Part shown: piece by piece, positions 20,241 to 54,030 of the stretch
Layout: each line of letters starts with the position of its first letter
Position numbering within the stretch: the first letter of the stretch is position 1
Assembly: GCA_028571685.1 (NCBI GenBank)
Contig: CM053143.1
Location: forward strand, 53,809,208-53,873,207
Origin: Heterohyrax brucei
Taxonomy: Eukaryota; Chordata; Mammalia; Hyracoidea; Procaviidae
Direction of reading: 5' to 3'
Length of the DNA stretch: 64,000 nt
Translations under genes and position numbers: made by a program
The notes under the pieces: model-generated
Database searches by the model: none
Told to the model about the DNA's origin: nothing
Seen by the model: only the letters and a program-made list of their open reading frames with translations

Positions 20241-20370
20241 TATTTTAATAAAACCGTTAACTTCTTTTATAAATATAATTAAAATTTTATTTTCAACAAG
20301 GAAAGCTGTCTACTGGGAAGGTTGTAACTAAGTCATCCTATCTACACAGTTAGTTTTCACTTATCCTGAT

Positions 20371-20397: not shown

Positions 20398-21879
20398 TCT
20401 ATCAGGATTTTTTTTGATAGATTCCAAAATTGAAGCATGACAGAAATGTTCTACATCAAACCATTTAGTACATACCATGTAGCTTATACTCTGCTGAGTT
20501 CTTGCTTTTTAGAATGCCAAGGAGAGTACTGAATATACACTGCAGTGCATTAAACGTTAGTATTATGACTAAAACCAGTAGTTAACATGTAGTTCTTATC
20601 TGTAGATCCTTGGCTGAAATTTGAAAGTAGCAGACTGTATTGTCTCATGTAGAATTTTAAGAGATTTCTTTTTTGGGCCTGCTTACTGCATTAGGAAAGG
20701 GCTTATTCTCCCAATGTATTTAACGTATATTTGCAATTTCTTTCTTTTTCTTTTTTTCCTTTATTTTCATAATTATCTACTGAGTTAGTTGTTTATAGTA
20801 GGTACTTTTATAAAACTACTGCTATGCTCTTTATTTACTGATTTTAAACAAACTGTGGGTGGGCAAAATAATATTTTAAAGTCACTACCACGCCAGCTGG
20901 CCACCTTGGTGTCTCACTGTGGGTGTTCAGCTTCGTTCAGTTGCCATATGACACGAAACAGGGCTTTGACCCTTGCAGAACTTCTGCTTGTAAAAGTGAG
21001 CTAGACTATAAAACTCACAATGATTTCATCAACAGTGGGTCCTCCAATGATACATTCCGTGCTTTCAGTTATTTACTGTACATGGGTAGCAGAAAAATGT
21101 CCTGTCAAAGTCAGCAGTTTAAAAAGACTGGAAGTCAGTCACAGTTACTAGTGATTTCCTCTAGACACTACAATGTTATTATTATTTATTAATTATTAAT
21201 TACTACATTTTGTAATGCATACTGTACTAAGCTGATACTTTTTCAGGGTCCTTTAGACTTTGTATGCAGCCCTTCACCCTTTTCTGGCATTTTACAAGTA
21301 AACTCCTTCCTGCATCAATAGATATTAGAATATTGTTAGAATACACAATACCAAGATCAATTTTCGTAGTCTGGGTTTTCATGTTATTCTTCCTGGACTA
21401 TCTGGACCATATTTCTAAGCAATACCAATTATAATTATGAATCTCAAGTATTTAACTCTTTTTAAGGAAAATATGTAAGTAGAATTATGCCAATAAGCAG
21501 GGTACTGAAGGACAGGAAGTACCTGTGTTTTAAACATTCAAATCAGGGATAACCCATACTTGCCCTTTAATGTTAAGTAAATTTGGCCTCATGCTAAACA
21601 AATGAACCAACCTCTACTCGAAACAAATTCTCCATCACAATCACCTTCAGTTGCTTCATGTGCAGGGTTTAAATCACTGAAAGATTCTGAGCCTTTTATT
21701 TTCACTAATGTAAAGCTAAGTAAGAACCTTATGCACCTGTTTTGACTTAAAGATACAAGAACAGATCTTTTTTGTAATCTGGGGAATGCCTGCACTAGCA
21801 TTTTTTTAAATTAGTCTGTGTGTGCAGACACATAAAAAGCAGACTAAAGCAGTTAGGGTAAGAGTGTGATGATACTAGT
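20398..21879. other. Long stretch without recognised gene
   Basis: Unique-looking DNA. An open frame at 20,923-21,192 (89 codons, starting MFSFVQLPYDTKQGFDP) is somewhat richer in G+C than its surroundings. I recognise no domain in it and see no splice or regulatory context, so I do not call it a gene. 21,190-21,879 holds nothing recognisable. Confidence 0.5.
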
Positions 21880-33876: not shown

Positions 33877-34083
33877 CTTTATATTTTAGAATGGCACACT
33901 ACTCAATACTCATTTAGGGAAGGCTCCAAAGTAAATCACAGCTTTGATTTGGAAAGAAGCAATCCAGTGATCATCATGAAAACTATGGTGTCATCATAAT
34001 AAAAGAGGGATGTACTACAGTCGTTATAGTCCTTCCAGATGGAGAGGAAGATGACAAGACTGGTAGTAATTAAAATTGGGTTT

Positions 34084-34111
34084 GCCAGCCAAGCCAAGTG
34101 CCGTCGAGTCA
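34084..34111. mobile_element. Micro-insertion copy 2, in L1 spacer
   Basis: Twenty-eight bp containing GCCAAGCCAAGTGCCGTCG sit between two GTTT copies (34,080-34,083 and 34,112-34,115). The same place in the L1s at 12,595 and 49,793 reads GTTTATATATAG-type and ACAAATAGTTTATTAAG-type sequence without insert. The insertion is therefore supported by empty paralogues. Confidence 0.85.
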
Positions 34112-34324
34112 GTTTACAAATAGTTTATTAAGGGGGTTCATAGGGGCAGCTGTAAACCACAACAAAGATGTATCATACCATTTCAAGAAATCTAACACAT
34201 GAGTCTCAACTACTATAAAACCAGCTCTGAAAAAGGTGAAAAATCAACTCACAAAAAAGAGTGTCCCAGAACAGACTAATAAGAACAACAGAGAAAACAT
34301 CAAAATAAAAATAAACATATCACA

Positions 34325-35409
34325 ATGGCAGCAGCGAACACATACCTATCAATAATTACATTGAATGTCAATGGACTGAATGCTCCAGTAAAGAGACACC
34401 GAGTGTCATCTTCGATCGAAAGACACGACCCATCCATATGTTGTCTACAAGAAACTCACTTGAGACCTAAAGACAGGAACAAACTGAAAATTAAAGGATG
34501 GAAGAATATTATCAAGCGAACAATGAACAAAGAAGAGCAGGGGTGGCAATTCCAATCTCAGACAAAATCAATTTTAATGTCAAATCCACCATTGTGGACA
34601 AAGATGGACACTATTTATTGCTGAAAGGTTCAGTACACAAGCAAGACTTAACTATATTAAACATTTATGCACCTAATGTCGGAGCACCTAAATATGTCGA
34701 AGAAACACTGACTATGCTCAAAAGAGAGTTAGATGACTCCACAGTAATAGTGGGAGACTTTAACACTGCACTCTCATCACTACACAGATCATCTAGAAAA
34801 AAGCTCAGTAAAGATACAGAAGACCTCATTGACACAATTAACCAACTAAACCTCATTGATATATACAGAACTTTCCACCCATCAGCAGACAACTACACCT
34901 TCTTCTCCAGTGCACATGGAACATTCTCCAGAATTGACCACGTGATAGGCCATAATGCAATGCTCAACAAAATCCATACCACTGAATTACTGCAAAGCAT
35001 CTTCTCAGATCATAAAGCCATCAAAGTTGAAATCAATAGCAGAAAAAACATAGATAGAAAGTGGAACTCTTGGAAACTGAACAACATCTTGCTCAAAAAC
35101 ACATGGGTTATAGAGGAAATCAGGGATCAATTAAAGAAATTCATGGATTCCAATGAGAACGAAATCACTTCCTACCAGAACCTATGGGATACAGCCAAAG
35201 CAGTGCTCAGAGGTCTGTTTATCTCCATAAATGCACACATCTGGAAGGAAGAAAGATACCAAATTAAGGAACTAACTCTACAGCTTGAACAAGTAGAAAA
35301 AGAACAACCAGAGGAACCCCTCGAGCACTAGAAGAAAGGAGATCATAAAGATTAGAGTAGAGCTAAATGAATTAGAGAATAGAAAAACAATTGAAAAATT
35401 GAAAAGATC
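34325..35409 (+). pseudogene. L1 ORF2 endonuclease part, truncated
   Basis: The endonuclease domain starts MAAANTYLSIITLNVNGLNA. It keeps CCLQETHLRPKDRNK, then after a frameshift near 34,507 (two bases lost) VGDFNTALSS, FSRIDHVIGHNAMLN and FSDHKAIKVEIN. These include the catalytic Glu, Asp-Asn and Ser-Asp-His residues expected in L1 endonucleases. Continuity ends in the spacer between endonuclease and reverse transcriptase (TLQLEQVEKEQPEEP), where the element itself stops. No reverse transcriptase is present, so it could not have mobilised itself after insertion. Confidence 0.9.
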
Positions 35410-35901
35410 AAAATTACTGTTTTGATCTGGATGACAGAATTCTAACATTCTAAATAGGAGTATCCATTGCACACGAGCACAAAAACGCACCCGGCCTTGT
35501 CTGTGGCTCTATGGAAGTTTGCACAGTGATAATGCAGTCAGAGTTGCACATGCGTCCCAGGCAGGAATTCGCAGTTCCCAGAGAGAATGGTCACTGGGAA
35601 AGTCTAAAGTACACAGCATGGAGCTTCAGCTCCATAGTTCCCTTCTAAGATTCCTTAGATTCCTTAGATTCCTTAGATTCCCTTCTACATCTGCTTTCTC
35701 AGAATTCAGTTTAGTGAACAGTGGGTGCTAGTTTGTCCTATTGTCTCAGCCCACATGTCATGGGATAGAGAAGAGAATTCAAACTTAAAATTAAATTGGG
35801 TTTCCTTGGAACATATTTGAGACATCCCAACAGTGTTAGTTATGTTAGTCCTCACTTTTTCTCCATTTTCTTTCATCTGAGGAAGTTAGAAATACAGTGT
35901 T
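35410..35901. repeat. Unique-looking stretch with 9-bp tandem repeat
   Basis: Unassigned DNA. At about 35,649-35,681 the unit ATTCCTTAG occurs nearly four times in a row. I recognise nothing else. Confidence 0.7.
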
Positions 35902-36211
35902 CTTTTTTTTAAATTAATGATTATTTATTTCTTTATTTGTTGTTTATTATGAGTGGGTGAAAATGTACATTCTCATATAAATTTACATGCTTACCTATAT
36001 GCAGCTTCCACTGCTCTCCCTGCCTGGTGACAGCACACTATTTTTCTCTGTTCCACATGTGTCTCATCCTCCCAACAGCCTCCTCTCCCCTCCTCTCCAT
36101 CCACTCTCCTTCCTCCAGCCAGAGGTCAGCAGGATGGTATCCTATAGATGCATAGAACCATAAAGTGCATCCCATATCTGGTCACTCTGTGTCACCAAAT
36201 TCAATCCATTC
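35902..36211 (-). mobile_element. 5'-truncated L1 3' end, antisense
   Basis: After a T-rich start come GGTGAAAATGTACATTCTC, CAGCTTCCACTGCTCTCCC and CCATAAAGTGCATCCC, then AATTCAATCCATTC. This equals the 3' UTR at 7,680-7,950 and 44,710-44,975. Only about 310 bp remain, a typical truncated copy. 36,212-36,518 shows nothing recognisable. Confidence 0.92.
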
Positions 36212-36518
36212 ATGGCAGCTGAGAGGGAATGGAAGGCAACTACAATAGTAAAATATCTCAGGTTTCCAGGCCCTGCAAGACCACTCAGTCAGCACCGTAT
36301 CCCAGTACCTGGTATGAGGTGAGAAACTCACGGTATCCATAGAGCTGCCAAGACTGAGCAATCCTGATTTAATCTCTTTTTACAACACATAAGATCAGTC
36401 TATAGGATTAAACTGATTCTTTAATTTGTACCAGTTGTTACCAATAGTGCAAGATTTTAGCACCAAATATTGATCTTAAGCTTATTATGACTTTTGTGTA
36501 AATTGGAAACATATCGAT

Positions 36519-36705
36519 TACCATCGAGTTGATTCCAACTCCTGATGATCCAATGTGTGCCAAACCAAACTGGGCTTTGCAGGGCTGTTTTTTCAGAAAT
36601 AGATTGCCAGGGATTTTTTTTCTTCCAGAGAGATTTTGTATGGATTCAAACTGCCAAATTTTTGGTTAGTAGCTGAGTATCTAAACATTTGTGCCATCCA
36701 GGGTC
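36519..36705 (-). mobile_element. AfroSINE-type SINE, antisense
   Basis: TACCATCGAGTTGATTCCAAC, then CTGATGATCCAATGTGTGCC, AGAAATAGATTGCCAGGG, TTTGGTTAGTAGCTGAG and GTGCCATCCAGGG. This is the longer SINE variant also seen at 3,228 and 39,098. 36,706-37,080 contains a short (AAAC)n run and nothing else recognised. Confidence 0.8.
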
Positions 36706-37080
36706 TCTCAAATCCTAAGCGTGATACTACTTTTTTCTTAGATAAAGGCTTCTGTTACATTAGAAAACAAACAAACAAACAAATTAAAAAACTCTAAGGG
36801 TAAGCCATTGTATACATGGCTACTGTTTCTTCAATATAAGCTTCAATTTCCTTATTAATTATCTGTCATGTATGGATATTGAGGAATTTATCATCACAAT
36901 TGCCACAGTCAAGGACAGCAAGGAAAACAAACAAATTTTAGGAGACCTATAAAATGTGATCTAAGAGGCAATTACTAAGCCTACTGCCAGTAACATAAAT
37001 AAAAGCAAAACTGCTCAGGTATAAATTGTTAAGAAAATTCTAAAATGCTAGTGATGAGTCCTTCAAAAACTAAAAAATGC

Positions 37081-37237
37081 AAACCAAGCCCACTACCATA
37101 AAGTCAATTTCAACTCCTAGCAACCCTGTAGGTAAGAGCTGAACTGCCCCATAGAGTTTCCAAGGAGCACCTGGAGGATTTGAGCTGCCAATCTTTTGGT
37201 CAGCAGCTGTAGCACTTAACCACTATGCCACCTGTGT
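37081..37237 (-). mobile_element. AfroSINE, antisense
   Basis: AAACCAAGCCCACTACCATAAAG, then CTGAACTGCCCCATAGAG, GATTTGAGCTGCCAATC and TTAACCACTATGCCACC. The leading AAACCAAGCCCACT is the complement of the 3' tail and is distinct from the micro-insertion core. 37,238-37,549 shows nothing recognisable. Confidence 0.85.
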
Positions 37238-37549
37238 TATGCCTTTTATACAATAGCAAATAACTTATTCTGAACTATCCAAATATTTGTTGAAATGTAG
37301 AACTTGTAAATGATGAACTTGGATTTTTAGCTGAGGTGATTTCAAAGCAAGATCTTAAAGGGCTGTTTGGTTTTTCCTTCCTGCTTGTAGTAAAAATGCA
37401 AGACGAAAGACAAGGACTTCAAAATGAACTGTGTGAGATGGAACAGAACTTGAAGATCTGAAAAATTGTGTTGTACAAAGTTGTACTAGAATTTTCATCA
37501 AAGACATGGCTACATAATCTTTCGTTAAAGAAGTTAAGGCTGTAACTGA

Positions 37550-38490
37550 TATATCTAACCAAACACCACCACAGAAAACTCACCAGCTTCCACTGAAGGG
37601 GACAGAGAAAGAATGAAAAAGAAAAAAAAAAACCCACTGCTTCTTAAAATTATACAGGCAGGAAAACAACCAAAGAAGGTGAATCCGATGTCCTCCAAGA
37701 AAAGATAAGGACCACCCTGGAGCAGCCTGGCGATCAGCAGAACTGCTGGAAAAAGCACAGAAAGCAGAGTAGCCTTGCTATTAAATATGGGGCCACAGCC
37801 TCGAGCTGTCAAAGGGTAGAATCACAGCCTCCTAGGTCTCAAAGAGTCAGATCCTCACCAACTTTCTTACAGAGTGTGGGGCTGCTATACAGCTTGGCCA
37901 AGAGGGTAGGACCGCCACCCAAGCTGTGAACAAGGGGCAGAAGAATAGGACCTTCCTGGCCTGAGAGGGTAGTATTGCCACCCAGACTGACTCAAGAAAC
38001 GAGGCTGCACAAAGCTGAGGTAGCAGAATTGTCATCCCAGAGGCACTGGAAGGTAGAGCTGAAGCCCAGGGCCAAAGGGCCTCCTGCAGAGACTATGGTG
38101 AGCACTCAGGATCTATAGGGGAAGATTGTCACAGCCTAGGTGGTCTTAGAGAAGAGATTTATTTTCAGGTCTTGAGAGCTCAAGTAAATTGTTTTGCTGA
38201 GTTTTGGAATTGCTGGGAGCCTCTTCTCCTGTTTGCGATGGAAGTATCTACCTTGTGCCTGTTCCACCATTGTTTTCGGAAGCAAATAACTTGCAGTCTA
38301 GATTTCATAGGTTCACAGAGAAAGAAGACTTTTGTCCCAGATTGGTATTCAAGTCTCACTACATTTGATTTAGATTTTTCAAAAGATGAGACTTTGAACT
38401 TAGAGTTGGTTTAAGACTTTTGGTATGATGTGATTTGTTGAATGTTTTACATGTGGCAAAAACATGAACTTGGGAGGTCAACAAGTCAGA
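37550..38490 (+). mobile_element. Probable MaLR internal region
   Basis: Non-coding or decayed sequence directly upstream of a MaLR-type LTR. It contains TTTGCTGAGTTTTGGAATTGC, CTGTTCCACCATTGTTTTCGG and GGTTCACAGAGAAAGAAGAC, which I associate with internal parts of MaLR elements. I rely on order and adjacency, not alignment. No retroviral frame is intact. The short frame at 38,172-38,414 has no recognisable domain. Confidence 0.55.
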
Positions 38491-38491
38491 T

Positions 38492-38852
38492 ACTACAGAC
38501 TGAATTATGTCTCCCCCCCCCTTTTTATCATAAATCCTAACCTCTATTCCTGTGGTTGGAAACCCTGGTGGTATAGGGGTTAAGTGCTATGGCTGCTAAC
38601 CAAAAAGTCAGCAGTTCAAATCTTCCAGGCATTCCTCGAAACCTCTACGAGGCAGTTCTACTCTGTCTATAGGGTCAATATAAGTTGGGATAGATTCCAT
38701 GGCTGTGGGTTTGGGGTTTTCTAATGCCTGTGGTCATAATTCCATTTGAGATTGCATTGTTTGTGTTATGTTAAAGAAGCAGGATTAGCATAAGGTTTGT
38801 CTTGTCAATATATTTTGAAATATGTAAAAAACAAATGAGAAGCAGAGATAGA
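38492..38852 (+). mobile_element. MaLR-type LTR, sense, 3'-truncated, with nested SINE
   Basis: Starts TACTACAGACTGAATTATGTC followed by a C run and CATAAATCCTAACCTCTATTC. After the SINE it continues AATTCCATTTGAGATTGC and GAAGCAGGATTAGCATAAGG. The usual end is not seen and the boundary near 38,852 is approximate. 38,853-39,097 is unassigned. Confidence 0.7.
38558..38723 (+). mobile_element. AfroSINE inside the MaLR LTR
   Basis: GGAAACCCTGGTGGTATAGG, then GCTGCTAACCAAAAAGTCAG, CTACTCTGTCTATAGGG and GCTGTGGGTTTGGGGTTTTC. The flanks ATTCCTGTGGTT (38,546-38,557) and ATGCCTGTGGTC (38,724-38,735) match at 10 of 12. Confidence 0.9.
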
Positions 38853-39097
38853 TGATTGTTTTCTATTTGTTTCTTGTCTGCATCCTTTTGAAAATAATAA
38901 AAACTACTTTCCTTGTGCTAATATGTATTTGACTCTGATGGAAGGATGTGCTGTCTTTGGAGCAATCCATATTAGTTATGAGGTTCCTTTTTTTTATGCC
39001 TTCCTAACCTGTGGCCACATTGCATCTTAGTTATGGTTCAGTCAAGCAGGTTCCAACAACATTGTCATGTAAAACATATACATGAATCTATGCTGAG

Positions 39098-39297
39098 ATG
39101 TTGTTGTTAGTGGCCGTCAAGTCTAGTAGGTTCATGGTGAGCCCATGTGTGCAGAGTATAACTTAGCTCCACAAAATTTTTTAAGACTATGATCTTTTAA
39201 AAGCAAATAACCAGTCTTGTCTTCTGAGGTACCTCTGGGTGGGTTGGAATCACCAGTTTTTAATCTAGGAGTCAAGTACATAGTCATTCATATGAGC
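39098..39297 (-). mobile_element. AfroSINE-type SINE, antisense
   Basis: ATGTTGTTGTTAGTGGCCGTC, then GTGAGCCCATGTGTGCAGAG, GTACCTCTGGGTGGGTTGG and AATCTAGGAGTCAAG. This is the longer variant. Confidence 0.75.
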
Positions 39298-39390
39298 TAT
39301 ATTGTTAAGTAAAATGAAAGCAAGATTAAGAACTATGTGACTTTCCTTTTACATAAATATTTAAAAATATTCTATGCATATATGACTACA

Positions 39391-39550
39391 AAAGGGTAAT
39401 CTTGGTTACATAGTGATTAAGCATTACGTCTGCTAGCCAAAAGATTGGCAGTTTGAAACACCAAGCACTCCTTGGAAAGTGTATGGGTCAGTTATGTTCT
39501 ATCTCAGAGGGTCACTGTGAGTCATAATTGACTCAGTGGCAATGGGTGGG
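39391..39550 (+). mobile_element. AfroSINE, sense
   Basis: GGTTACATAGTGATTAAGC, then CTGCTAGCCAAAAGATTGGC, GAGTCATAATTGACTCAG and TGGCAATGGGTGGG. The flanks TATGACTACA (39,381-39,390) and TATGATTATA (39,551-39,560) match at 8 of 10. Confidence 0.85.
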
Positions 39551-39771
39551 TATGATTATACACAGGTAGACTTTCACTGGATAGATAAATCATAAGATAC
39601 ATTAACCAGTTATGAATGAGTTATGCTTCTTGTTGCAGATAATTTTGTACTATATGACCTAAAAAAAAATAAACATAGAATGTGTATTCAAATAAATAGT
39701 CATTTATCAAAGATATTTAAATAACCATGCGTAACAAGTTAAAAATTTCTTATTTGAGGTATTATGGATAA

Positions 39772-39935
39772 ATCATGGATTTTGAAGTCAGGGACACTGG
39801 GTTCAATTACCAGCTCTACACAAATCTGGGGAATATATTCGGCTCTGATGAACTCATTTTTTTTTAATCTAAAATTGGGTTTATAAAAAAACAAAATCTC
39901 ATGGTTCTTGAGAGGAAGTAAATATGCTTACGCTC
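39772..39935 (+). repeat. MIR SINE remnant
   Basis: CATGGATTTTGAAGTCAGGG, then ACACTGGGTTCAATTACCAG, CTCTACACAAATCTGGGG and AATCTAAAATTGGG. Classic MIR order, diverged. Confidence 0.75.
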
Positions 39936-40544
39936 TCTTTACGTCAAAGCTGTTTTTACTTTTACTTTCCATAATAATGAGAGTTTTCATTGAAAGTTTT
40001 GTTAAAGAAGTGATACACTTAGCTAAAGGAAATTAATTTTGCTTTAGGTAAATTTTTAAATTCTCCATGTTCTTAATATAATTTATACCTTTTTAATGCA
40101 GTAGAGTTATCCAAACCAGTAATTACAATATATTTGGGGTATCTCAATTTCTTTAGAGATATAAAAGAACACATTTTTTGAAATTTTTTTCAGTGTTTCA
40201 TTTTGATGCCTTTAAACTTGACAAGAATTCCCATAAACATTTTCCCATATTCCAAAATTGTTTACATCTTGCACCATTTATCATTTTCTCTGCCAATCTA
40301 TTAACTTATTTACTATATATGTATATATATTTTCAACACTTTGAAATTTAAAGACATTATGCTCATTTGCTGCATAAAATTTTTGCATACATTAGAAGAA
40401 CATTCACTCACATAATCACACTTTACATAATTCTCAATACCACAACATTTCCCTGATACAATATTATTGTCTAATCTGCAATCCAAATTCAAATTTAATC
40501 AACTGGTAGATAATAGCTATTTTTATAATAGTCTTTTTAAATTG
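39936..40544. other. No gene recognised
   Basis: About 600 bp of AT-rich sequence with nothing recognisable. Confidence 0.5.
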
Positions 40545-42960
40545 TACTTTAGATGAAGATTTACAGAACAAACTTGCTTCTTACTAAACAAGTACTGCAC
40601 ACTGTTTTATGAACTTGGTTAATAACTCTACATGTCAACATTCTCCCTTCTCAACTTTGGGTTCTTTATTGCCATCTTTCCTATCCCCTCCTACCTTTTA
40701 GTCCTTTCCCCTGGACTGTTGTGCTGCTTAGTCTCATGTTGTTTTATGGGCTCGTTTAATCTTTGACTGCAGGGTAAACATCAGGAGTGACTTCATGACA
40801 CAACTAGAAGAGTGTTCAGGGACCACATTTTCAGGGTTTCTCCAGTCTTTGTCAGACCAGCAAGTCAGGTCTTTCTTTTTGAGTTAGAATTTTATTTTAC
40901 AGTTCTCTCCAGCTCTGTCTCAGATCCTCTGTTGTGTGTCAGTGGTGGTAGCCAGGCATTGTCTAGTTGTACTAGATCTGGTCTGCTGAAGGCCATTGCA
41001 GATCTTTCCAGTGTAGTCTTTCCCATGTTTCTTGTCCTAGACTACAGCTCACAGTCTTTTAAGCAGTCAGACATTACTTACCAAAACAGAATGTAGAACG
41101 TTTTCGTTATAAACTGTGCTATGCCAGGTGAACTAGACATTTCCCATGACCATGGTCCCCACAGCCTTCAGCCCAGCAACCCAGCCCCTCAGGAGTTTGA
41201 ATGTGTCTTTGGAACTTTCATCATCTTGTCTCATACAAGTTGTGCTGCCTTCCCTAGAACTGTGTACTGTCTTACCCTTCACCCAAGTTACCACTTAGCT
41301 ATTTTCTATTTGGTATTTTACCATCCCACTCCTCCTCTCCGTTAAACCATCCAGGATTGCTTCCTGATGGTTTGTGTGTAAACCTTTTCATGAATTTTTA
41401 TAGTAATGGTTTCATACAGCATTTGCTCTTTTGTGATTGACGTATTTTATTCAACATAGTAACTTCCAGTTTCATTCATGTAAGATGTTTTCCAGACTCA
41501 TCATTGCTTTTTATTGTTCCGTAGTACTTCACTGTGTATATGTACCACAAATTGTTTATCTGTTCATCTGCTGATGGGTATTTAGATTGTTTACATATTT
41601 TTGCTGCTGTGAACAATGCTACAATAAACATAGGTATGCATATGTGTACTCATGTGATAACTCTTATTTTGGTAGGATATATTCCTAGGAGTAGGATTGC
41701 TGAATCACATGGTATTTTTATTTGTAACTTTCTAAAGAATAGCCATGTTGTTGGGGAAAAGACAACCCAGAAGACAGAGAGACCCACATGAGCGGATGCC
41801 TACATCAACTTGGGACTGAGACCGGATGGTGCCCGGCCACCACAAGAGATAGCGGCGATGGAGCTCACAAAGTTGAGTCTAACTGGAAACACAACAATAA
41901 AAAGGGGTGCACCCTGATATCTCCATTAAAAGATGACAGTTGATGGTCCAGCAGTTTCAGGATTTCCCTGGGAGCATAGACTCTGGCCCTGATGCTGCCC
42001 TTGCCCATAAATCATAACAAAGGTCTACTCCTCGTACACAAATGGATTGGACTTGGCGACTCAGAGTGACCATATGTTGGGTGCACTTTATGATTCTATG
42101 CATCTATAGAACATCATCCTGCTGACCTCTGGCTGGAGGAAGTAGAGTGAGTGGAGAGGAGAGTAAAGGAGACTGTTGGTAAGATGAGACATGTATGGAG
42201 CAGAGAGGAATAGTGTGCTGTCGCAGGGCAGGGAGAGCAGTGGAAGCTGCATATAGGTGGGCATGCAAATTTATATGGGAATGTACATTTTCACTCTATA
42301 ATAATTAAAAAAAAAAAAGAATAACCATGTTGTTTTCAAACTGGTTGTATTGTTTTGCAGTCCTAATTTGTTACTTTGTGTTTTATTGGTGCCAATAATG
42401 ATGGAGTGAGACACTATCTCATTGTGGTTTGGATTTGCAGTTCTCTAACGACTAGTGATTGTGAACATTTCCTCACATGTGTCTGTTAGCTACTTGAATG
42501 CCTTCTTTGGCTAAGTATCTGTTTATTTCCTTTGCCTATTTTTTAATTGTGTTATTTATCGTTTTCTTGCAAAGTTGCTGGATTTGTTACAGCCATTTTT
42601 TCCCCCCAAAAGTCTATAGGTTCTCTTTTTAATCTTTTTTTGTGAAGTTATTTGATAAGCCTAGTGTTGACCTTTTAGTTCTGTGTGGTTGGTTATAGTT
42701 TGTATCCTGTTAATGCCATGTATTAGGACCTCTAGCATTGATTTTATCTTATTTTTTTTTCTTCTATGATCTTTATTGTTTTTGGTTTTATGTCTAGGTC
42801 TTTGATCTATTTTAAATTAGTTTCTGTGTATGGTACGAGGTATGGCTCTTATTTTTCTGCACGTAGACAACTGGTTTTGCCAGCAACACTCGTTAAAATA
42901 AAAATATTGTCTTTTCCTCATTTATAATAGACTTTGTAGCTCTTTTATCCCAGTTTCACA
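40545..42960 (-). mobile_element. Old L1, 3' part, antisense, with younger L1 nested
   Basis: The plus strand first shows a complement of an older-type L1 3' UTR (40,545-41,430), then the complement of the ORF2 C-terminus: CATTGCTTTTTATTGTTCCG, then GTACTTCACTGTGTATATG, AATGCTACAATAAACATAGG and GGATTGCTGAATCACATGG. A sense L1 3' end interrupts at 41,753-42,318. The old L1 then continues to about 42,960 (CTCATTGTGGTTTGG, TTTGATCTATTTTAAATTAG, ACTGGTTTTGCCAGCAACAC). No open frame of note remains. Confidence 0.87.
41753..42318 (+). mobile_element. 5'-truncated young L1 3' UTR, sense, with target duplication
   Basis: About 565 bp of the same 3' UTR as the L1s at 7.7 and 44.7 kb (GACCGGATGGTGCCCGGCC, then GATTCTATGCATCTATAG), ending in ATTAAAAAAAAAAAA. 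The flanks AAAGAATAGCCATGTTGTT (41,734-41,752) and AAAGAATAACCATGTTGTT (42,316-42,334) differ at one of 19 positions. It is a textbook truncated insertion into the old L1. Confidence 0.95.
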
Positions 42961-43968
42961 GTCTAATCCAAGACCACACAGTGCACTCAGTTTTCAACTC
43001 TGTAGTAGTTCCTCAAACTTTGTCTTTTAGATCTTAACATGTTTAATGATTATATGTCACTTATTTTACAGAATGTCCTTTTACTCAAGTTTGCATGGAG
43101 TTACATCACAATTATATTTTTAAGTTATGTATTTTAGGTAAAAAAAACCACTGACTCAATAGTATGTTTTTCTTAATCCATTATATCAAAAAGCACAATT
43201 TGTTCCAATAATGTAGACTTTAACTGTTATTGTGTTGTTACAGTGACATCTGACAGATTTCTTCACTGTAAAGTGATTCTTTAAATATAATTTATTTGTA
43301 GAGAGATATTTTGTAATAATGTAAATATGCTAGTTGTAGCCAATCTTTCATCAGCTTGATTTAGCATCTATTGATGATTTTGTAACTTCATCATTACTTC
43401 ATATCTTTTGGACATGAATATAAGAGACAACTTGTCAGTCTCTGCCATTCATTTGTTCATTCATTATGTTATTTCCCTTATTATGGACTCAGTAATTTTA
43501 TTCAGTAAACCTGAGTTAACATTAATTCAATGAGTTATTGTATTCATTGATGCTCAAATTGTCCCAGGTCTGGCCAATAAACAAGGGCTTTGAGCAGACA
43601 CCTCTGTCTTTTCATTATCCTCACCTTCTACTCAGTGCTACTTACTTTGTAGCACTGGAAGACCTTTCAGGGTCATCTAGTATTCTGCTTCTCCAAGAAC
43701 TTGAATCAACCTTTGCTGTTTATAATTCTAGTTAGTAGTGTACAAATTTTGGAGAACAAGATCTGGGTACCAGATGGACTCAGTTTTGTGTATTTGCTTC
43801 TACAACTTTGTGTCAAACTGAGATAGAAAATATATGAATGAATATGAACATGCATATTTACGTTTCAATGCAAAAATATAAGATACATTCCATTCTAACC
43901 TCTTTCCATATTTGTAACTGAGAATTTTGCTGTTGATGTGGAGAGAGATATATTATAAGAAAAAAGAA
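42961..43968. other. No gene recognised
   Basis: About 1 kb of AT-rich unique-looking DNA. A short frame at 43,538-43,735 has no domain that I recognise. Confidence 0.5.
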
Positions 43969-44053
43969 AAACACTGCCATTGAGATGATTTGGACTTTTG
44001 GCAACCCTGTGTGTTACTGAGTAGAATTACTCCAGATAGTTTTTCTTTTAGTT
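43969..44053 (-). mobile_element. AfroSINE fragment, antisense
   Basis: AACACTGCCATTGAGATGATTTGG, shortened here, and GAGTAGAATTACTCCAG match the first third of an antisense SINE. A further piece, GCTGAGTGGGTTTGAACTG at 44,671, may be its continuation after about 600 bp of foreign sequence; the L1 at 44,698 then cuts it off. Confidence 0.55.
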
Positions 44054-44665
44054 AAAAAAAAAAAGCAAGTTTTATTCAGCATATATTCAAAAAGACACAG
44101 GTTGGGAAATGACAAGCATGTAGCCAATGCCATGTTTACCCCAGTTCAAGGAATATTACAAAGCAGGTAAGAATGGGAAAAGGAAAAAGTATGCTACCCA
44201 GGCATGTCTGCCCCAATACAAGGGCCATTATAGAGCAATAAGTGTACATTAATATTACAAATGGACAAAATTATTGAAAACTTCACATTTGCACAGATTA
44301 GCTAGAAACTGTGCTCTAACATTTTGATTTGTCATTTTTAACAATCTTTGGTACAGGTTTTAGTGAAGACAGTCTAATCAATTTTCTATTCATTAAATGC
44401 TAATAGAAAAAAAGAGTGGAAAATCCTTTGTTTTCTGTTTTATGATTTGTTTATGTGAAAGATTCCTTAGATGATAATTTCCTACATTATTTTAGCTGTA
44501 GTCTTGATGCATCAGGGCTGAGTTGCTGTGTCCTTTTAAGTACTTGTAAGTTCTGGCTCCAGCTGGATCACATTTTAGTACAAGGAATAATGACTCTTAT
44601 ATTATCTTCTAGATTACAATAGAATTTGATACTCCCCCAACCTCCTGTCCACTCTTTCTTCCGCA
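44054..44665. other. Unassigned insert between two SINE pieces
   Basis: About 610 bp, starting after an A run, with no repeat that I recognise. It may be an insertion into the SINE or the SINE pieces may be unrelated. Confidence 0.4.
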
Positions 44666-47600
44666 GTACTGCTGAGTGGGTTTGAACTGTGAACTTTATT
44701 TTATTTTTAATTAACATAACTGAGTGAAAATGTACATTCACGTATAAATTTACATGTTCACCTACATGCAGCTTCCACTGCCCACCCTGTCCGGTGACTG
44801 CACACTATTCCTCTCTGCTCCATACATGTCTCATCCTCCCAACAGTTTCCTTTCCCCTCCTCTTCGTCCACTCCCCTTCCTCCAGCCAGAGGTCAGCAAG
44901 ATGATATCCTATAGATGTATAGAACCATAAAGTGCTTCCAATATGTGGTCATTCTGCATTGCCAAATCCAATCCATTGCTGTCCAAAGAGTGGAACTTTG
45001 TTATAATTTATGGGAAAGGGCAGCATCTGGGCCGGGGGCCATGCTCTCAGAGGAACCCCAAAACTGCTGGGCCATCAGTTGAGGATTTTTTAGTGGAGAT
45101 CTCATGATGTACCCCTTTTTATTCTTGTGTTGCCAGTGAGACTCCTCTCTGTGAGCTCCATCGTGGCTATCACTGGTGGTGGCCGGGCACCATTCGGTTC
45201 TTCCGGTCCCAAGTCAATGTAGGCACCCACTCTTGTGGGTCTCTCTGTCTTCTCAGTTGTCTTTACCACGTGTCATTTTGGTCCTCGGTGCGCATCCGTT
45301 CCTGCTGAGTTGGGACCATTTGCTGTGTCCTCGGATGGCAGCTTGGCAGCTTTTAAGACTCCAGACGCCACTCACCAATGTAGGGTGCAGGGAGCTCTCT
45401 TAGCAAAATGCTAGTTGTGCCAATTGGCCTGGAATTCACCTAAGAGCATGGTCCCCAGCCCCTCGCCCCAGCTTCTCTATCCTTGCAGTATTGAGTTAAG
45501 ATGGAAGGAGTACTCAAGTTATGCTGAAGTCCACTTAATGTTGTTCTTGTTTCCAATGTGTGCTGTCACTGCTTTCTCCCAACTAGATTTCTAGTAACTA
45601 TCTAAACTAAACCCTCCCCCCTTCACCTTTCCTCCTTCCCCTCCCTTGCAGCTGTCAAAGAATCTTTTCTTCTATACACAAGTCTGTTTTTGAGATCTTA
45701 TCGTAGAGGTCTCATACAATATTTGTCCCTTTGTCACTGGCTATTTTCACTCAACATAATGTCTTCCAGTTGAAACCAGGTTAGGAGATGTTTCCTGGAA
45801 TCATCGTTATTCTTTATCATTGCATAGTGTTCCATTGAGTATATGTACCATAGTTTACCAATCCATTCTTCTACTGTTGGGCATCTGGGTTGATTCCATC
45901 TTTTTGCTATGGTGGACTGTGCTGCGATAAACATTCTGGTGCATGTGTCCATTGGTGTGAAAGGCCTTGATTCTGTAGGATATATTCCAAGTAGTGGAAC
46001 TACTGGGTCAAATGGTATATCAATATCCATTTTTTTTAGGAAGCACCAGATTGCCTTCCAAAGAGGCTGGACCATTTTGCAACCCCACCAAAAGTGTAAG
46101 AGGTTTCCATTTTCTCCACAGCCTCTCCAGCATTTGTTGTTTTGTGTTTTCTGGATCATGGCCAATCTTGTTGGGGTGAGATGGTATTTCATTGTTGTCT
46201 TGATTTGAATTTCTTTAATAAGTAAAGATCGTGAACATGTCCGCATGTGTTTTTTGGCTGCCTAGATCTCCTCTTTAGTGAAGTGTCTGTCCATCTCCTT
46301 TGCCCATCACTTAATTGGATGGTTTATCTTCTTCTTATTGATATTTTGTAGTATCTTATAGATTATGGAGATCAGGCGTCGGTCTGACATACAGTTGCCA
46401 AATATTTTTCCCATTCTGCAGGTGTTCTTTTAATTCTAGTAATAAAGTCTTTGGATGAGCAAAAGTGTTTGATTCTTAATAGTTCCCATTTATCTATTTT
46501 CTCTTCTGTTGATTGAGATTTCTTTGACAGATTTTGGAGTCTGTCCTCATTGTGTATTAAAACTTCCATTGTTGTTCGTAACTTTTATTGGATGAGCTTT
46601 ATTGTTTTAGGTTGGATATTTAGGTCTTTTATCCAGTTGGAGTTGGTTTTTGTATAAGGTGTAAGATATGGATCTTGATTCAGTTTATTGCAGATGGATA
46701 ACCAATTTTGCCAACACCATTTGTTGAAGAGACTGTTTTTACCCCAGTTTAATGTCTTAGGGCCTTTGTTGAATATCAACTGTTCATAGGCAGATGGTGT
46801 CATCTCTGGGGTCTCAGTTCTGATCCATTGATCAATCTGTCTGTTCTTGTACCAGTACCAGGCTGTTTTGACCACTGTGGCAGTGTAGTGTGTTCTAAGG
46901 TCAGGCAATGAGAGCCTCCCAGTGTGTTCTTCTTCTTTAGTAGTATCTTGCATAACGGGGCTTCTTCCCTTTTCAAACAAAATTGGTGATTTGTTTCTCT
47001 ATCTCACTACAAAATGGTGCTGGAACTTGTATTTGGATTGTATTATATAAATAAATTACTTTGGGTAAAATAGACATTTTCACAATGTTAAGTCTTCCTA
47101 CCCAGGAGCAGGGTAGGTTTTTCCATTTATCTAAGACTCTCTTAGTTTCTTGTAGTAAGGGCTTGTAGTTCTCTTTGTAAAGATCTGTTGTTTCTCTGGT
47201 TAGATTAATTCCTAGGTACTTTATCTTCTTAGGGGCTATCATAAATGGTATTGATTTGATAATTTCCTCCTTAACTGTCTCGTTGTTGGTATAAAGGAAT
47301 CCTACTGATTTACTTATGTTTACCTTGTATCCTGAGACTTTGCTCAACTCTTCTATCAGTTTGAGTAGCTTACTTATAGTTTCCTTGGGGTTCTTTGCAT
47401 ATACAGTAATATCACCTGCAAACAGGGAGATTTTAACTTCCTCTTTGCCGATGCAGATGCTCTTTATTTCTTGGTCTTGTCTAATTGCTCTGGCTAGAAC
47501 TTCTAGCACAATGCTGTATAGGAGAGGTGACAGTGGACATCCTTGTCTAGTTCCTGATCTCAAGGGAAAGTCTTTCAGTCTCTCTCCACCATCTCCAGGA

Positions 47601-48050
47601 TGATGTGGGCAATCAGCTTTGTTTAATGTGTTGAGGAATTTGCTGTCTATGCCCATTTTGCTAAGGGTTTTTAGCATGAATGGGTGTTGGACTTTATCAA
47701 ATGCGTTTTCGGAGTCAATGGACAAAATCAGGTGATCCTTTTCTTTTGTGTTATTTATGTGGTTAATCACATTAATTGTTTTTCTGATGTTGAACCAGCC
47801 TTTCATCCCTGGTATGAATCCCACTTGGTCATGATGGATTATTTTCTTGATATGTTGTTGTATTCTGTTAGCAAGAATTTTGTTGAAGATTTTTGCATCT
47901 AGGTTCATGAGTGATATTGGTCTGTAGTTCTCTGTCTTTGTTGGATCTTTCCCTGGCTTAGGTCTCAGGGTTATGCTGGCTTCATAGAATGAGTTTGGGA
48001 GTACTCCATCCCTTTCTATACTGTGAAATAGTCTCAGTAGTATTGGGGAT

Positions 48051-48080
48051 CCGACTCGACGGCACTTGGCTTGGCTTGGC
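48051..48080. mobile_element. Micro-insertion copy 3, with perfect 12-bp duplication
   Basis: Thirty bp, CCGACTCGACGGCAC followed by three TTGGC units, lie between two identical AGTATTGGGGAT copies (48,039-48,050 and 48,081-48,092). The L1 at 10,978-10,995 has a single uninterrupted site. The insert plus duplication is 42 bp and keeps the ORF2 frame. Confidence 0.93.
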
Positions 48081-48913
48081 AGTATTGGGGATAATTCTTC
48101 TCTAAATGCTTGGTAGAATTCTGCCGTGAAGCCATCTGGGCCCGGACTTTTTTGGTTGGCAGTGTTTTGATGACCTTTTCAATTTCTTCCTTTGTGATGG
48201 GTTTATTAAGTTGTTCTGCTTCACGTTGTGATAATTTGGGTAGGTGGTATGAGTCAAGGAATTTGTCCATTTCCCCTAGGTTTTCAATTTTGTTAAAGTA
48301 CAGTCTTTCATAGTATTCTGTTATGATGTTTTTGATTTCTGTTGCATCTGTGGTGACAACTCACCTCTCCTTTCTAATTTGGGTTATTTGTTTCCTTTCC
48401 TTCTTTTCTTTAGTAAGTTTAGCCAGTGGTTTATCAATTTTGTTGATCTTTTCAAAAAACCAGCTTTTGGTCTTTTCAATTTTTTCAGTTGTTTTTCTAT
48501 TCTCTAATTCATTTAGCTCTGCTCTAATCTTTACGATCTCATTTCTTGTGGTGCCCGAGGGGTTCCTTTGTTGTTCTCTTTCTGCTTGTTCAAGCTGTAG
48601 AGTTAGTTCCTTGATTTGGTTTCTTTCTTCCTTCCAGATGTGTGCATTTATGGAGATAAACAGACCTCTGAGCACTGCTTTGGCTGTATCCTATGGGTTC
48701 TGGTAGGGAGTGTTTTTGTTCTCATTGGAATCCATGAATTTCTTTAATTCATCCTTGATTTCTTCTATAACCCATGTTTTTTTAAGCAAGATGTTGTTCA
48801 GTTTCCAGGAGTGCCACTTTCTATCTATATTTTCTCTGCTATTGATTTTAACTTTTATGGCTTTATGATCTGAGAAGATGCTTTTCAGTAATTCAGTGGT
48901 ATGGATTTTGTTG

Positions 48914-48938
48914 CCAAGCCAAGCGCCGTCAGATCGGA
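48914..48938. mobile_element. Micro-insertion copy 4, in ORF2 endonuclease
   Basis: Twenty-five bp, CCAAGCCAAGCGCCGTCAG then ATCGGA, between GTTG copies (48,910-48,913 and 48,939-48,942). The L1s at 11,738-11,760 and 34,960-34,985 lack it. It shifts the ORF2 frame by 29 bp. The core has three changed bases against other copies. Confidence 0.88.
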
Positions 48939-49917
48939 GTTGAGCATTGCGTTATGGCCTATCACGTGGTCAATTCTGGAGAATATTCCAGGTGCACTGG
49001 AGAAGAAGGTGTAGTTGTCTGCTGATGGGTGGAAAGTTCTGTATATATCAATGAGGTTTAGTTGGTTAATTGTGTCAATGAGGTCTTCTGTATCTTTACT
49101 GAGCTTTTTTCTGGATGATCTATCTACTAATGAGAGTGGAGTGTTAAAGTCTCCCACTATTATTGTGGAGTCATCTAACTCTCTTTTGAGCGTATTCAGT
49201 GTTTCTTCGACATATTTAGGTGCTCTGACATTAGGTGCATAAATGTTTAATATAGTTAAGTCTTGCTTATGTACTGAACCTTTCAGCAATAAATAGTGTC
49301 TGTCTTTGTCCACGAATGTGGATTTGACATTAAAATTGATTTTGTCTGAGATTAGAATTGCCAACCCTGCTCTTCTTTGTTCATTGTTAGCTTGATATAT
49401 ATTCTTCCAACCTTTAATTTTCATTTTGTTCCTGTCTTTAGGTCTCAAGTGAGTTTCTTGTAGACAGCATATGGATGGGTCGTGTCTTTTGATCCAAGAT
49501 GACACTTGGTGTCTCTTTACTGGAGCATTGAGTCCATTGACATTCAATGTAATTATTGATAGGTATGTGTTCACTGCTGCCATTGTGATATGTTTATTTT
49601 TATGTTGATGTTTTCTCTGTTGTTCTTATTAGTCTGTTCTGGGACATTCTTTTTTTGTGAGTTGATTTTTCACCTTTTTCAGAGCTGGTTTTATAGTTGT
49701 TGAGACTCGTGTGTTAGATTTCTTGAACTGGTATGATACGTCTTTGTTGTACTTTACAGCTGCCCCTATGAACCCCCTTAATAAACTATTTGTAAACCCA
49801 ATTTTAATTACTACCAGTCTTGTCATCTTCCTCTCCATCTGCTTGACTCCACCCCCCTGAACTGGGAACTTTTAAGTTTGTAGTCCTACACAAATCATTT
49901 GCATTACTTAGAAAACT

Positions 49918-50062
49918 CTTAGATTGATAGATACATATATAGGGAGATAAAGAGATAGATGACGATAAACAGGATAAACAGATAGAGGGAGGGATAGAGA
50001 GGCAGGCAGAGAGAGAGAGACAGAGATTGGAAGATATGGAGATACGCAGATATATAGACAGA
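49918..50062. repeat. GA/GATA-rich simple sequence
   Basis: Purine-rich low-complexity tract with GATAGAT and GAGAGAGAGA runs, lying in the short gap between two head-to-head L1s. Confidence 0.85.
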
Positions 50063-50523
50063 CATGGAGGTGTTGTCAAGATGGTGGACTAGACACACGT
50101 CTCCTTAACTCCCTCTGAAAACCTAGGTTGATAATTAATGGAGTCTTCTGGGCACCCAGTGAGCCCTAGGACACAGCATAGGACTGTCAATTTGGACTAC
50201 ATGCCACTGAACAGGATACTGCTTCTCTTTTGCTGACCACCACCCTTGTTAAATGGCCAGCTCTCATGGATTGAAGATAACCGATGTTTTTAACTTTTTT
50301 TCTTTGCCTTAGCTGGCAGGTGGCACTTGGGCTTAACTGTCAACAAATCTTAGCTGCACTGCTGATGTGATATGCAGGTGGATTAGCTGCATTTTGAGAG
50401 CCCAGCTCTGGAGTCTGAGCACCACGGCCCCACCAACCTCTCTTTCCAAACCTCCAACATTGGTTTTACTCTTTCACAGCAGGCAGGAGAGCTTGTGTGG
50501 GATACCTTCTTGTTTGACTGGCC

Positions 50524-50739
50524 TCAGGAGAAGCTAATTCCCATGCTGGAATGCAGTGCCAGACTCAGGAGTGCTTTCCGAACAGAACAGCTGTGTTTAG
50601 CACACTGTAGCCTTACAGGTGGGGCCAACAACTGGTGATAGCAGGGCAATAGTCTGTTTGCACTTTCAACTATATTACAGCATCTGAGGATGGATACAGA
50701 GGCACCTCCATTGCCAGGTAGAAAGAAGGGCTTGTACAT
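50524..50739 (-). other. Antisense open frame in L1 5' UTR (third copy)
   Basis: Seventy-one codons with RLLPCYHQLLAPP and CSVRKALLSLAL, which line up by position with MLLPCWPLLTGPS and CDRKVLSCGQAL of the frame at 32,742-32,110. Diverged and unproven. Confidence 0.4.
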
Positions 50740-51105
50740 CTGACAGCCTCACTGATTTTGGAAGCTGCCATACAGCCTTTTCCTTTCATATTATGACTAC
50801 CTAGAGAAATAACTGCAGTGCATCCTGATAGCATCTCTTCCAGCCTTTACTGATCCATATCATAGGGTCAGCTGACAGCCCCCAGTGACTTCATAAGTAA
50901 GGCTGGGTCTTTGCCAACCAGGAGGTGGAATCTGCTACCCTGGAGATTCCACTGGGCCCAGCCCACTGGAGTACACTTGTGTGACTGGTGATCTCCTTCC
51001 TTCTCAGGCTGTGTCTCAAATCTTGTCAACACAACACCAAAGGAACTAAACAACCTCTAGATGTCCCAAAAGCAACAAACCTTGGCCGGACACTTAAAGA
51101 ACATA

Positions 51106-51263
51106 AGTGGAGAGGAGGGGCAAGGAAACTGTTGGGAGGATGAAACATATATAGAGCAGGGAGGAATGGTGTGCTGTCACTGGGCAGGGAGAACAGTAGA
51201 AGCTGCACATAGGTGGGCATGTAAATTTGTACAGGAAGGTACATTTTTACTCAGTCATAATAA
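51106..51263 (+). mobile_element. 5'-truncated L1 3' end nested in ORF1
   Basis: AGTGGAGAGGAGGGGCAAGG, then GGAATGGTGTGCTGTCACTGG, GTAGAAGCTGCACATAGG and CATTTTTACTCAGTCATAAT with a short A-rich end. Equals the last 160 bp of the younger L1 3' UTR. The host ORF1 resumes after it. Confidence 0.9.
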
Positions 51264-51860
51264 AAAAATTAAAACAACAAGAAAAAGCCATCTACAGCTC
51301 CAAAAAACTCCCAAAAGAAAGAACCAAAGAACTTCCCAGATGAAGAAGTCTTTCTGAAACTACTGAAGGTTGAGTACAAAAGGATTATTATAGAGCCCTC
51401 CTAGACAGCATACAAAATGAAGCAGAGTAAGAGGAAAAATTAAGCAAGCTGTTCGAGCTGAGGGAACATCAGAATTCTGAAATCCAACAGGTAAGTAACA
51501 AAACCAAAAAATAGAAAATTCAATTCAAAGCCAAGAAAACAGAATTGAACAACTGGAAAACAGACTTTCTGATTTGGAAGACAGAGCTACTGACTCCAGC
51601 ATCTATGAGAAGAAATCAGAAAAGAAACAAGAAAAAAGAAGAAGCATTAAGAAACATGCGGGACTCTCAAGAGGAACAATATATGATCAATTAGAGTCCC
51701 TGAACAGGGAGGGACACCTGAAAGCACAGAGGGTATTGTCATTGAGCTGTTGACAGAAAACTTCCCTGAAATTACAAAAGAAGAAGAAAGATGTGTATCA
51801 AACACCACACAATATAGACCCCAAAAGAATACACCAAAACATATTATAATCAAGCTTAAC

Positions 51861-51880
51861 TCGACGGCACTTGGCTTGGC
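51861..51880. mobile_element. Micro-insertion copy 5, in frame in ORF1
   Basis: Twenty bp TCGACGGCACTTGGCTTGGC between TAAC copies (51,857-51,860 and 51,881-51,884). The L1s at 13,125-13,145 and 33,541-33,556 have the empty site. The total of 24 bp preserves the reading frame. Confidence 0.88.
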
Positions 51881-53537
51881 TAACAAAATGAAACATAAGG
51901 AGAAACTTTTAAAGGCAGCGAGACTCAAAGCAAAGCTAGCGTTTGGAAGGAAACTCTGCATGCTTTCATCTGACTTCTCAGTAGAAACGATGTTGGCATG
52001 GAGGAAGTGGGATGACACATTCCAAGCCTTGAAGGAGAAAAACTTCCAGCCAAGAATTACATATCCCGCAAAAATGTCTTTCAAATATGAAAATGAAATT
52101 AAGACTTTCACAGATAAACAGAAACTCACAGGCTTTGTAAAAACGAAACCAAAGCTAAAGAAATACTGAGAAAAGTTCTTAACTTAAGAGAACAAAATCA
52201 TTAATTCTGTGTTTTAGGAGGCAGTACAGGACACATCATCCTGAAACCTACTCAGTAATGGAAGCCACAAAACTCAATCAAAGCCATAATACTAAAATAA
52301 GTGATCTAGTGTTCATATCGTGAAAACTATGATATCATCATATTAAAAAGAGGTCCGTACTACAGTAGTCATAGTCTTTCTAGATGGAGAGGAAGTTAAT
52401 AAGTTATGTAGAAGTTAAAACTAGGTTTAAATATAGATTATTAAGGGAAGCATCTCATAACCTGGTTTCAGTTGGAAGGCATTATGTTGATTGAAATTAG
52501 TCAGTGGCACAAGGACAAATATTGTATGAGACCTCTACTATAAGGACTTAGATACAGAGAAAACTCTTTGATGGCTGCAGGAGAGCGGACGGAGGAAGGA
52601 AAAGGGCTGGTTAAAGATTAGATGGTTCATAGAAATTTGGTTGGGTGTAATCAGTGACAGCACACATTAAAAAGATCAGTTTAACTGGTCTTCAACATAA
52701 CATGAATATTCTTCCAATCTTAACCCAATATTTCAAGGACAGGGTACCTGGGGCGAGGGCCTAGGGACCATGCTCTCAGGGGATATCAAAGCCAATTGGC
52801 ATAACTAGCATATTGCTAAGAGAGTCTTCTGTACCCTATACTGGTGAGCAGCATCTGGGGTCTTAAAAGCTAACAAGCTGCTATCTGAAGTACACCAAAT
52901 GGTCCCAATGCAGCAGGAACAGGTGATCATCAAGGACCAAAATGACATGGGGGAAAGAGAACCCACAAGACAGAAAGACTCACATGAATGGGTGACTACA
53001 TCAGCACGTGACCAGAAGAACCAGATGGTGCCTGGCCACCACCAGTGACAGCTGTGATGGGGCTTACAAAGTTGATCCTCAGTGGCACCATGAGAATAAA
53101 AACAGGTGCACCCTGAGAACTCAGCTAAAAGGCCACAATTGATGGTCCAAGGCCAAGGGGTTCCCCTGGGAGCATGGGGCTGCAAGTCCTGATGCTGCCC
53201 CTGTTCATAAATCATTACTGAGGTCAATTCCTCAAACAGGAATAGATTGGAATCAGCGACACAGAGTGACCATATCATGTGTGCCCTTTATTGTTCTGTA
53301 CATCTACAGGATGTCGTCCTACTGGTCTCTTACTAGAGTAGAGAGAAGGAGTGAAGGAGAGGGGACAGGAGATTGTTAAAAGGATATGATGTGTATAGAA
53401 CAGAAAAGAGAACTGTTCTGTCACTGGGAAAGGAGAGCAGTAGCAGCTACACACAGGCAGGCAAGCAAATTTAAATTGGATTGTATGCTTGCACTCAATC
53501 ACAATAAATAAATAAAATATATATATAAATATGGATG

Positions 53538-53561
53538 CCAGCCAAGTGTCATCGAATCGGA
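53538..53561. mobile_element. Micro-insertion copy 6, decayed
   Basis: CCAGCCAAGTGTCATCGAATC then GGA lies between ATG copies, just after the L1 tail. Two CpG sites of the core have decayed to TG/CA, so this copy is older. The 3-bp duplication is too short to prove insertion. Confidence 0.65.
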
Positions 53562-54030
53562 ATGTATATTTTTATGCAAATAATTTCCATCTTCTATTTT
53601 CCCTTGCCAACGACTCCTTCCTCCCAGAAGTTACTTTCATAAGTGCCACTATGCTAATTTTTATATGTACTATAAAAAGTAATGTTAATAATGTAGTGCA
53701 TTTACAAAAATACCTCTCAGGAGACATAGCAGTTGTCAAACAAATGTAGAAAGTGCACAGTATTTGTGTAAAAAACAGGGTAATTTGCTGAAGCTATGAA
53801 ATAGATAGTAGTTATGAGATGAGTAACACATACTTCTGCAAAAGGCAAACTTATTAAATCAAGTTCAATATTTGTATATAACTACTTTTAAATAGAAATC
53901 AAAACAATACAATTCATAAATCACTGCAAAGCTTATGAGGCAGAGTTCTCTGTCTTTTACAGTCTCTGTGTGTCAGAATCACCTTGATAACAGTAAGTTT
54001 GGTCTGGTTACTTTAACCTGTATTCTAAGT
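53562..54030. other. No gene recognised
   Basis: Roughly 470 bp of AT-rich sequence with nothing recognisable. Confidence 0.5.

Follow-up and report, generated by a model that had tools for sequence, protein, structure and literature searches.

The truncation of retroposed copies on their 5' side is a known outcome of target-primed reverse transcription, and repeat annotation normally reveals the length distributions of retroposons only above its detection limit. The nearest work to the present subject is reportedly that of Gilbert et al. in 2008 on the target sites of RTE1_LA. Short interspersed elements (SINEs) of the AfroSINE family have long interspersed elements (LINEs) of the RTE type as partners, namely RTE1_LA in elephant and RTE1_Pca in hyrax (PMC3747384). 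A Tn-TA target signature has been described for RTE-clade LINEs and their SINEs, and a similar pattern in elephant RTE is cited in the same article from Gilbert et al. 2008 (PMC13295347). This text concerns a stretch of 64,000 nucleotides (nt) of the Heterohyrax brucei genome (assembly GCA_028571685.1, contig CM053143.1, positions 53,809,208 to 53,873,207), called the window, which holds six ultra-short inserts, and the many copies of the same sequence in the rest of the genome. Each insert corresponds to the very 3' end of a young SINE derived from transfer RNA (tRNA) and similar to AfroSINE, whose end is of the RTE type and whose tail is (TTGGC)n. The inserts are very probably 3' stumps left by RTE-type target-primed reverse transcription in which copying mostly stops before ~50 nt.

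Several described systems resemble these inserts in part. The young family shares with AfroSINE a tRNA-type head, an RTE-type 3' end and a short-repeat tail, but differs from the older AfroSINE in having (TTGGC)n as its tail and in that most copies stop 50 nt or less from the 3' end. As in Bov-B and plant RTE insertions, the target starts with A/T and has a T stretch about 10 nt upstream, and the 3' end is microsatellite-like; the truncated copies reported there include many below 1 kb, whereas the product here is typically ~30 nt (PMC13295347). Tailless retropseudogenes are likewise short, truncated, retroposed RNAs, but they are tied to L1 and lack a tail, whereas the copies found here with a search that required the core keep their own 3' end and tail and lose the 5' side (PMC5322556). 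The 5'-truncated copies of cockroach R2 also represent integrated products of incomplete first-strand synthesis; about 100 bases is called relatively very short in that system, whereas most inserts here are below 50 (PMC7650587). DNA transposons and miniature inverted-repeat transposable elements have two constant ends with terminal inverted repeats, and the inserts have a single constant end while the other varies. A regime in which ~85% of the young SINE-end copies are shorter than 50 nt and the older SINE is seldom so short was not found described in the literature searched, most subscription papers being outside that search.

The exact 14-letter core of the inserts (GCCAAGTGCCGTCG) occurs 41,769 times (20,935 and 20,834 on the two strands) in the host genome (3.49 Gb, 62 contigs), and the reversed core, used as a control, occurs once (0 and 1). 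Two samples were read. The first comprises the first 100 listed core places (contig C1, 0.2-15.3 Mb), which gave 99 distinct copies; the rows dropped were L009 (incomplete; replaced by L029), those L004 rows that repeat L003 copies, and L057, whose 120 letters are identical to those of L056. The second comprises 60 copies, drawn from the 141 whose tail is longer, on contigs C1-C16 (16 contigs). Read in the other orientation, all 99 copies of the first sample have the form ...CGACGGCACTTGGC and then mostly TTGGC-like repeats, which follow the core in most copies read. Longer tails are rare, TTGGCTTGGCTTGG following 141 of the 41,769 cores and two further units following 6. Upstream of this 3' end the copies match a single parent, GGCGCTCCTTGAATACTCTGGGGGTCAGTTCTACCCTGGCCCCTAGGGTCGCCATGAGTCGGATCCGACT, over a variable distance. 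The whole SINE with its tRNA-like head is present in few copies (for example L026, L115 and L123, which were read through), the tRNA descent of the head being judged by eye; among copies that hold the SINE body, the head is present in 71 of the first 100 listed of 4,448. The parent resembles the AfroSINE consensus, and with that consensus as a query diverged AfroSINEs are found in the window, with 68-85% identity in the longer matches. The proposal of a first-pass annotation of the window, that the inserts derive from the 3' end of an RTE/AfroSINE element and carry a (TTGGC)n tail, is borne out. The distribution of cores is uneven, the density on C1 from 0 to 15.3 Mb (~6.5/Mb) being half of the genome mean of 12/Mb. 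The same insert also occurs in near-identical loci that represent local duplications, some of them close together (L084-L086 at 14.06-14.24 Mb of C1, L056/L057, L005/L029).

The lengths of these copies form a broad, declining continuum from ~8 nt to the full SINE. Element length was taken from the element start to the first TTGGC, a measure that halts at decay and to which chance matches add a letter or so. By this measure the first sample has a median of 27 nt, with 69 of 99 copies below 33 nt and 85 of 99 below 50 nt; the latter count becomes 83 when taken more strictly, L020 and L041 carrying SINE body upstream of an internal change, and one of the 85, L087, is a short insert within an older SINE. 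The second sample agrees, with a median of 30.5 nt and 51 of 60 copies below 50 nt. An anchor independent of the core, scored with tolerance for CpG changes, gave 18 copies shorter than 14 nt and 49 shorter than 21 nt among the first 100 listed of 478, and the series reaches down to 8-9 nt; a few of these short copies may be longer ones that have decayed. A 33-letter version with CpG-tolerant letters occurs 7,786 times genome-wide, or 18.6% of the core count, and the 33-letter listing includes 15 of the first 100 listed cores, which agrees with the sample. Copies that reach ~54 nt, and so hold CTACCCTGGCCCCTA, run through the next 20 nt in 76 of the first 100 listed of 6,041. Since copies past ~54 nt mostly run on and body copies mostly carry the head, loss is concentrated at the 3' end, and the skew towards copies below 50 nt in both samples makes ordinary truncation inadequate as a description. 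The suspicion that the lengths depart far from ordinary truncation was well founded, but a distinct ultra-short retroposon of fixed length is rejected in view of the continuum, in which the copies grade into full SINEs. The six inserts of the window do end within a few bases of each other (element part 17-24 nt), as had been reported, but this does not hold genome-wide. The smooth length distribution that the first-pass annotation had named as contrary evidence was found in so far as the distribution is continuous and has no peak at 20-30 nt as such; it is nevertheless strongly skewed. No difference in age between truncated and body-bearing copies was shown with the 11 hand-picked body copies compared (L020, L079 and L087 excluded), for non-CpG mismatches (20/784 vs 6/154, p 0.42) or for CpG mismatches (44/224 vs 13/44, p 0.16).

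The older AfroSINE of the same genome, which terminates in GGCAGTGGGTTTGG, differs from the young family in that its copies are nearly always longer. Among 20 copies sampled from 695 exact 19-mers, the SINE body is present in 19 and the head in 18, whereas in the young family the body is present in 13/99 and 4/60 and the head in 8/99 and 3/60 copies of the two samples (thresholds set at the 99th percentile of 201 control stretches). A test of the far 10 nt upstream, in which the old copies were the first 100 listed of 20,000, agreed with this and gave a score of at least 6 in 93/100 old copies, 60/99 and 34/60 young copies and 54/594 random stretches; at a score of at least 5 the corresponding counts are 96, 64 and 39, and 183. 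A global score of the upstream 20-mers did not distinguish old from young copies (old 94/100, young 91/99 and 50/60), since it includes the near half that they share, and it was replaced by the far-half and body/head tests. The old AfroSINEs point to an afrotherian host, and an elephant is improbable: of 13 candidates scored for the P53 family, 10 were matches, nine of them at three loci and one, on C10, with internal stops, vs 19 TP53 retrogenes in the African elephant (PMC5061548).

Target-site features were found in part of the copies. Visible target duplications of short copies are 8-14 bp long, and a duplication score of at least 8 was reached by 25 of 99 copies vs 7 of 990 controls with swapped flanks, and by 41 of 165 copies overall; the latter set omits the near-identical duplicates L008, L085 and L086, which were also excluded from the stop-hazard counts below, and includes L120-L128, nine copies picked as long that lie outside the 99. 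When the 37 copies that are shorter than 50 nt and have a duplication are aligned on the duplication start, T occupies positions -13 to -10 in 20, 20, 25 and 18 copies, A or T position -11 in 36, T position -1 in 20 and A or T position 0 in 29. TTT occurs within -16 to -9 in 18 of the 37 vs 61 of 333 control windows. Copies with a visible duplication thus carry a signature that resembles the Tn-TA described for RTE endonucleases, and the suggestion of a different kind of templated insertion is not supported, the copies also grading into full SINEs. In 20 of the 37 the end of the duplication and the start of the element overlap by 1-5 nt. A paralogue search found a spanning match for 40 of 93 queries, including one site's match to itself (53,541) and the insert-bearing duplicates L005 and L084-L086, and many of the spanning matches are too diverged to inform; insert-free paralogues were found for several sampled loci, such as L049, L067 and L056. 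L056 and L180 differ in length and lie at apparently the same L1 position (GGTCTTTT/ATCC), apparently as independent hits on one preferred target. At the 5' junction of L164 a second partial copy of the element start is present (CATGAGTCAGATCC then CATGAGTCAGATCCGACT), as if synthesis had restarted.

The six copies of the window fit this general description. All six had been located by the first-pass annotation and were recovered in the window at up to 3 mismatches to the core (4 exact, 2 with two mismatches), vs a mean of 0.61 in shuffled windows, with six reached in 0 of 100 shuffles; four exact cores in 64 kb, vs a genome mean of ~0.77, make the window locally dense. Copy 1 (20372..20399, minus strand) consists of the last 23 nt of the SINE 3' end and one TTGGC, matching the 3' end of long copies at 28/28 positions; the paralogue search gave no spanning paralogue for it, and its flanks (window 20360-20410, the copy central) carry an inverted repeat, AATCCTGAT/ATCAGGAT, instead of a direct repeat. 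Copy 2 (34084..34110, minus strand; 18 nt of element and 9 nt of tail) has insert-free paralogues in the window (89% over 201 columns), at L036 and at L053, with a duplication of ~4-5 nt. Copy 3 (48051..48080, plus strand) has 20 nt of element, or 24 nt if the GGAT common to the duplication is counted, and two TTGGC; reading of the sequence and comparison with insert-free paralogues (in the window, L036, L039) give AGTATTGGGGAT as its target duplication, at 48039..48050 on the left and 48081..48092 on the right (no strand assigned). Copy 4 (48913..48938, minus strand) is decayed, with ~21 nt of element and TTGGC, and the window holds an insert-free paralogue of 94.5% identity that indicates a duplication of ~3 nt. 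Copy 5 (51859..51880, plus strand; 17 nt of element and TTGGC) has insert-free paralogues at L036 and L053 and a duplication of 2-3 nt. Copy 6 (53537..53561, minus strand), also decayed, has ~21 nt of element and TGGC, and its sole spanning match in the paralogue search is the site itself. Insert-free paralogues thus exist for four of the six sites (34,093; 48,057; 48,918; 51,862), as had been claimed for inserts within L1s. The last three of these sites lie within open frames matching L1-type Pfam domains, and the end of an L1 RBD-like frame lies ~0.4 kb before the first. The duplications of 4, 12, 4 and 4 bp reported for these sites hold for the 12 bp at 48,051; by paralogue the other three are 2-5 nt, short and ambiguous by 1-2 nt. 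Copy 3 lies inside the open frame 46973-48178 (minus strand; RVT_1 match) and copy 5 inside the L1 ORF1-like frame 51687-52169 (L1 ORF1 domains), and both frames stay open with the insert as extra residues. Several L1-type frames between 33365 and 52169 are open across 110-401 codons, which suggests rather young L1s.

The positions at which copying stopped are not spread evenly. Over the first 48 nt above the core the stop hazard is ~5% per nucleotide (156 copies), and a hotspot lies 18-19 nt above the core, where 23 of 122 at-risk positions are stops, vs 121 of 2656 outside it. The hotspot was noticed in the first sample (Fisher p 3.7e-6, with 0 of 500 simulations in a scan test) and recurred in the second (p 1.5e-3, with 16 of 500 in the scan). 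It coincides with the foot of a large predicted hairpin of the parent end (14 bp and a 4-bp closing helix; predicted -39.7 kcal/mol, z -2.48, a stability equalled by 6 of 200 shuffles), which a small palindromic hairpin, GAGTCGGATCCGACTC, is predicted to adjoin. Five long real copies were also folded, and L019, L065 and L115 close at the same foot as the parent. A 3' stem-loop is bound by the proteins of L2-clade LINEs (PMC4176376).

These observations are best explained by abortive target-primed reverse transcription, which would proceed as follows. The template would be an AfroSINE-type RNA, or the RNA of the partner LINE, ending in ...GGGTCGCCATGAGTCGGATCCGACTCGACGGCACTTGGC(TTGGC)n. An endonuclease would nick an RTE-type target whose A/T start is preceded, at 10-13 nt upstream, by a T-rich stretch, and synthesis of complementary DNA (cDNA) would begin in the TTGGC tail. 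In most reactions synthesis would end before ~50 nt, as the two predicted 3'-terminal hairpins are being copied, and the short cDNA would then be joined as other LINE products are. The hairpins may cause the stops, perhaps when held by ORF2 protein as a recognition structure, and the reverse transcriptase, the template or a host factor may have changed between the old and young SINE generations. Tentatively, and with less confidence than attaches to the stumps themselves, this could be an abortive phase of retroposition akin to abortive transcription initiation: the RTE enzyme would fail on the 3' recognition hairpins, scars of 10-50 nt would make up most insertions and be by far the commonest product, and the regime would have been turned on by a switch between two SINE generations.

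Several points weigh against this account. A partner RTE LINE that shares this 3' end was not found, in a search that a LINE sharing just the last ~40 nt would escape. In 124 of 165 copies the duplication score stays below 8, the duplication being short or not visible, L056 looks blunt against its paralogues, and part of the copies may have been joined by another route; the Tn-TA test covers the copies with a duplication. The proposed link between hairpins and stops is one of position and of predicted folds. Taken by itself, the 44-nt terminal hairpin has no unusual stability (z -0.91); of the five copies folded, L123 retains the hairpin but lacks the closing helix, and L026 adopts a different fold. 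Since many stops also lie 3' of the large hairpin, hairpins are not the sole cause, and the older SINE has a related terminal palindrome by eye, yet is rarely truncated.

An unlikely alternative is that the partner RTE LINE itself underwent ordinary 5' truncation and that SINE RNA gave the long copies only. LINEs are normally truncated (PMC3747384), and copies below ~50 nt are indistinguishable by origin between the SINE and its partner LINE; among the copies holding CTACCCTGGCCCCTA, however, the 24 of the first 100 listed that do not go on as SINE share no alternative sequence by eye, and even if a partner LINE were the source, the loss of ~5% per nucleotide would remain far outside the ordinary. 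Less probable is a discrete small RNA, such as a processed 3' SINE fragment of 15-50 nt, copied to its end each time. The hotspot could mark the end of such an RNA, and copies past the hotspot region mostly run on, but a processed RNA predicts few sharp ends, whereas the observed 5' ends lie at many different positions, from 8 nt upward. Patching of double-strand breaks with an RNA template, which has been proposed for fragments of telomerase RNA (PMC8537989), appears highly improbable. The copies that fall short of the duplication threshold would suit it, as would the 1-5 nt overlaps (20 of 37), which by a rough estimate would be expected in about a quarter of random joins. Patching, framed here as insertion without an endonuclease target, is at odds with the duplication-bearing copies, which have an RTE-type Tn-TA target and in which duplications lie far above the swapped-flank control; the retained 3' end does not count against it, as the search pattern required that end. 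An assembly or library artefact is dismissed, for although the sites are known from the assembly and not from raw reads, there are tens of thousands of them, part with flanking duplications, some decayed (an argument against an adapter that the first-pass annotation had made), and some common to duplicated loci (L005/L029, L084-L086).

The inserts bear on how RTE-driven retroposition is counted. With the mode of the length distribution at a few dozen letters, the copy count and mutational load of an RTE/SINE system may be understated several-fold. The ~5% drop-off per nucleotide and the positioned hotspot amount to thousands of natural stops for testing the limits that template structure sets on target-primed reverse transcription. 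Those short inserts for which an empty paralogue exists might also be used as evolutionary markers. If there is indeed an abortive phase of retroposition, its scars would escape standard repeat annotation and would be a hidden source of small insertions in genes.

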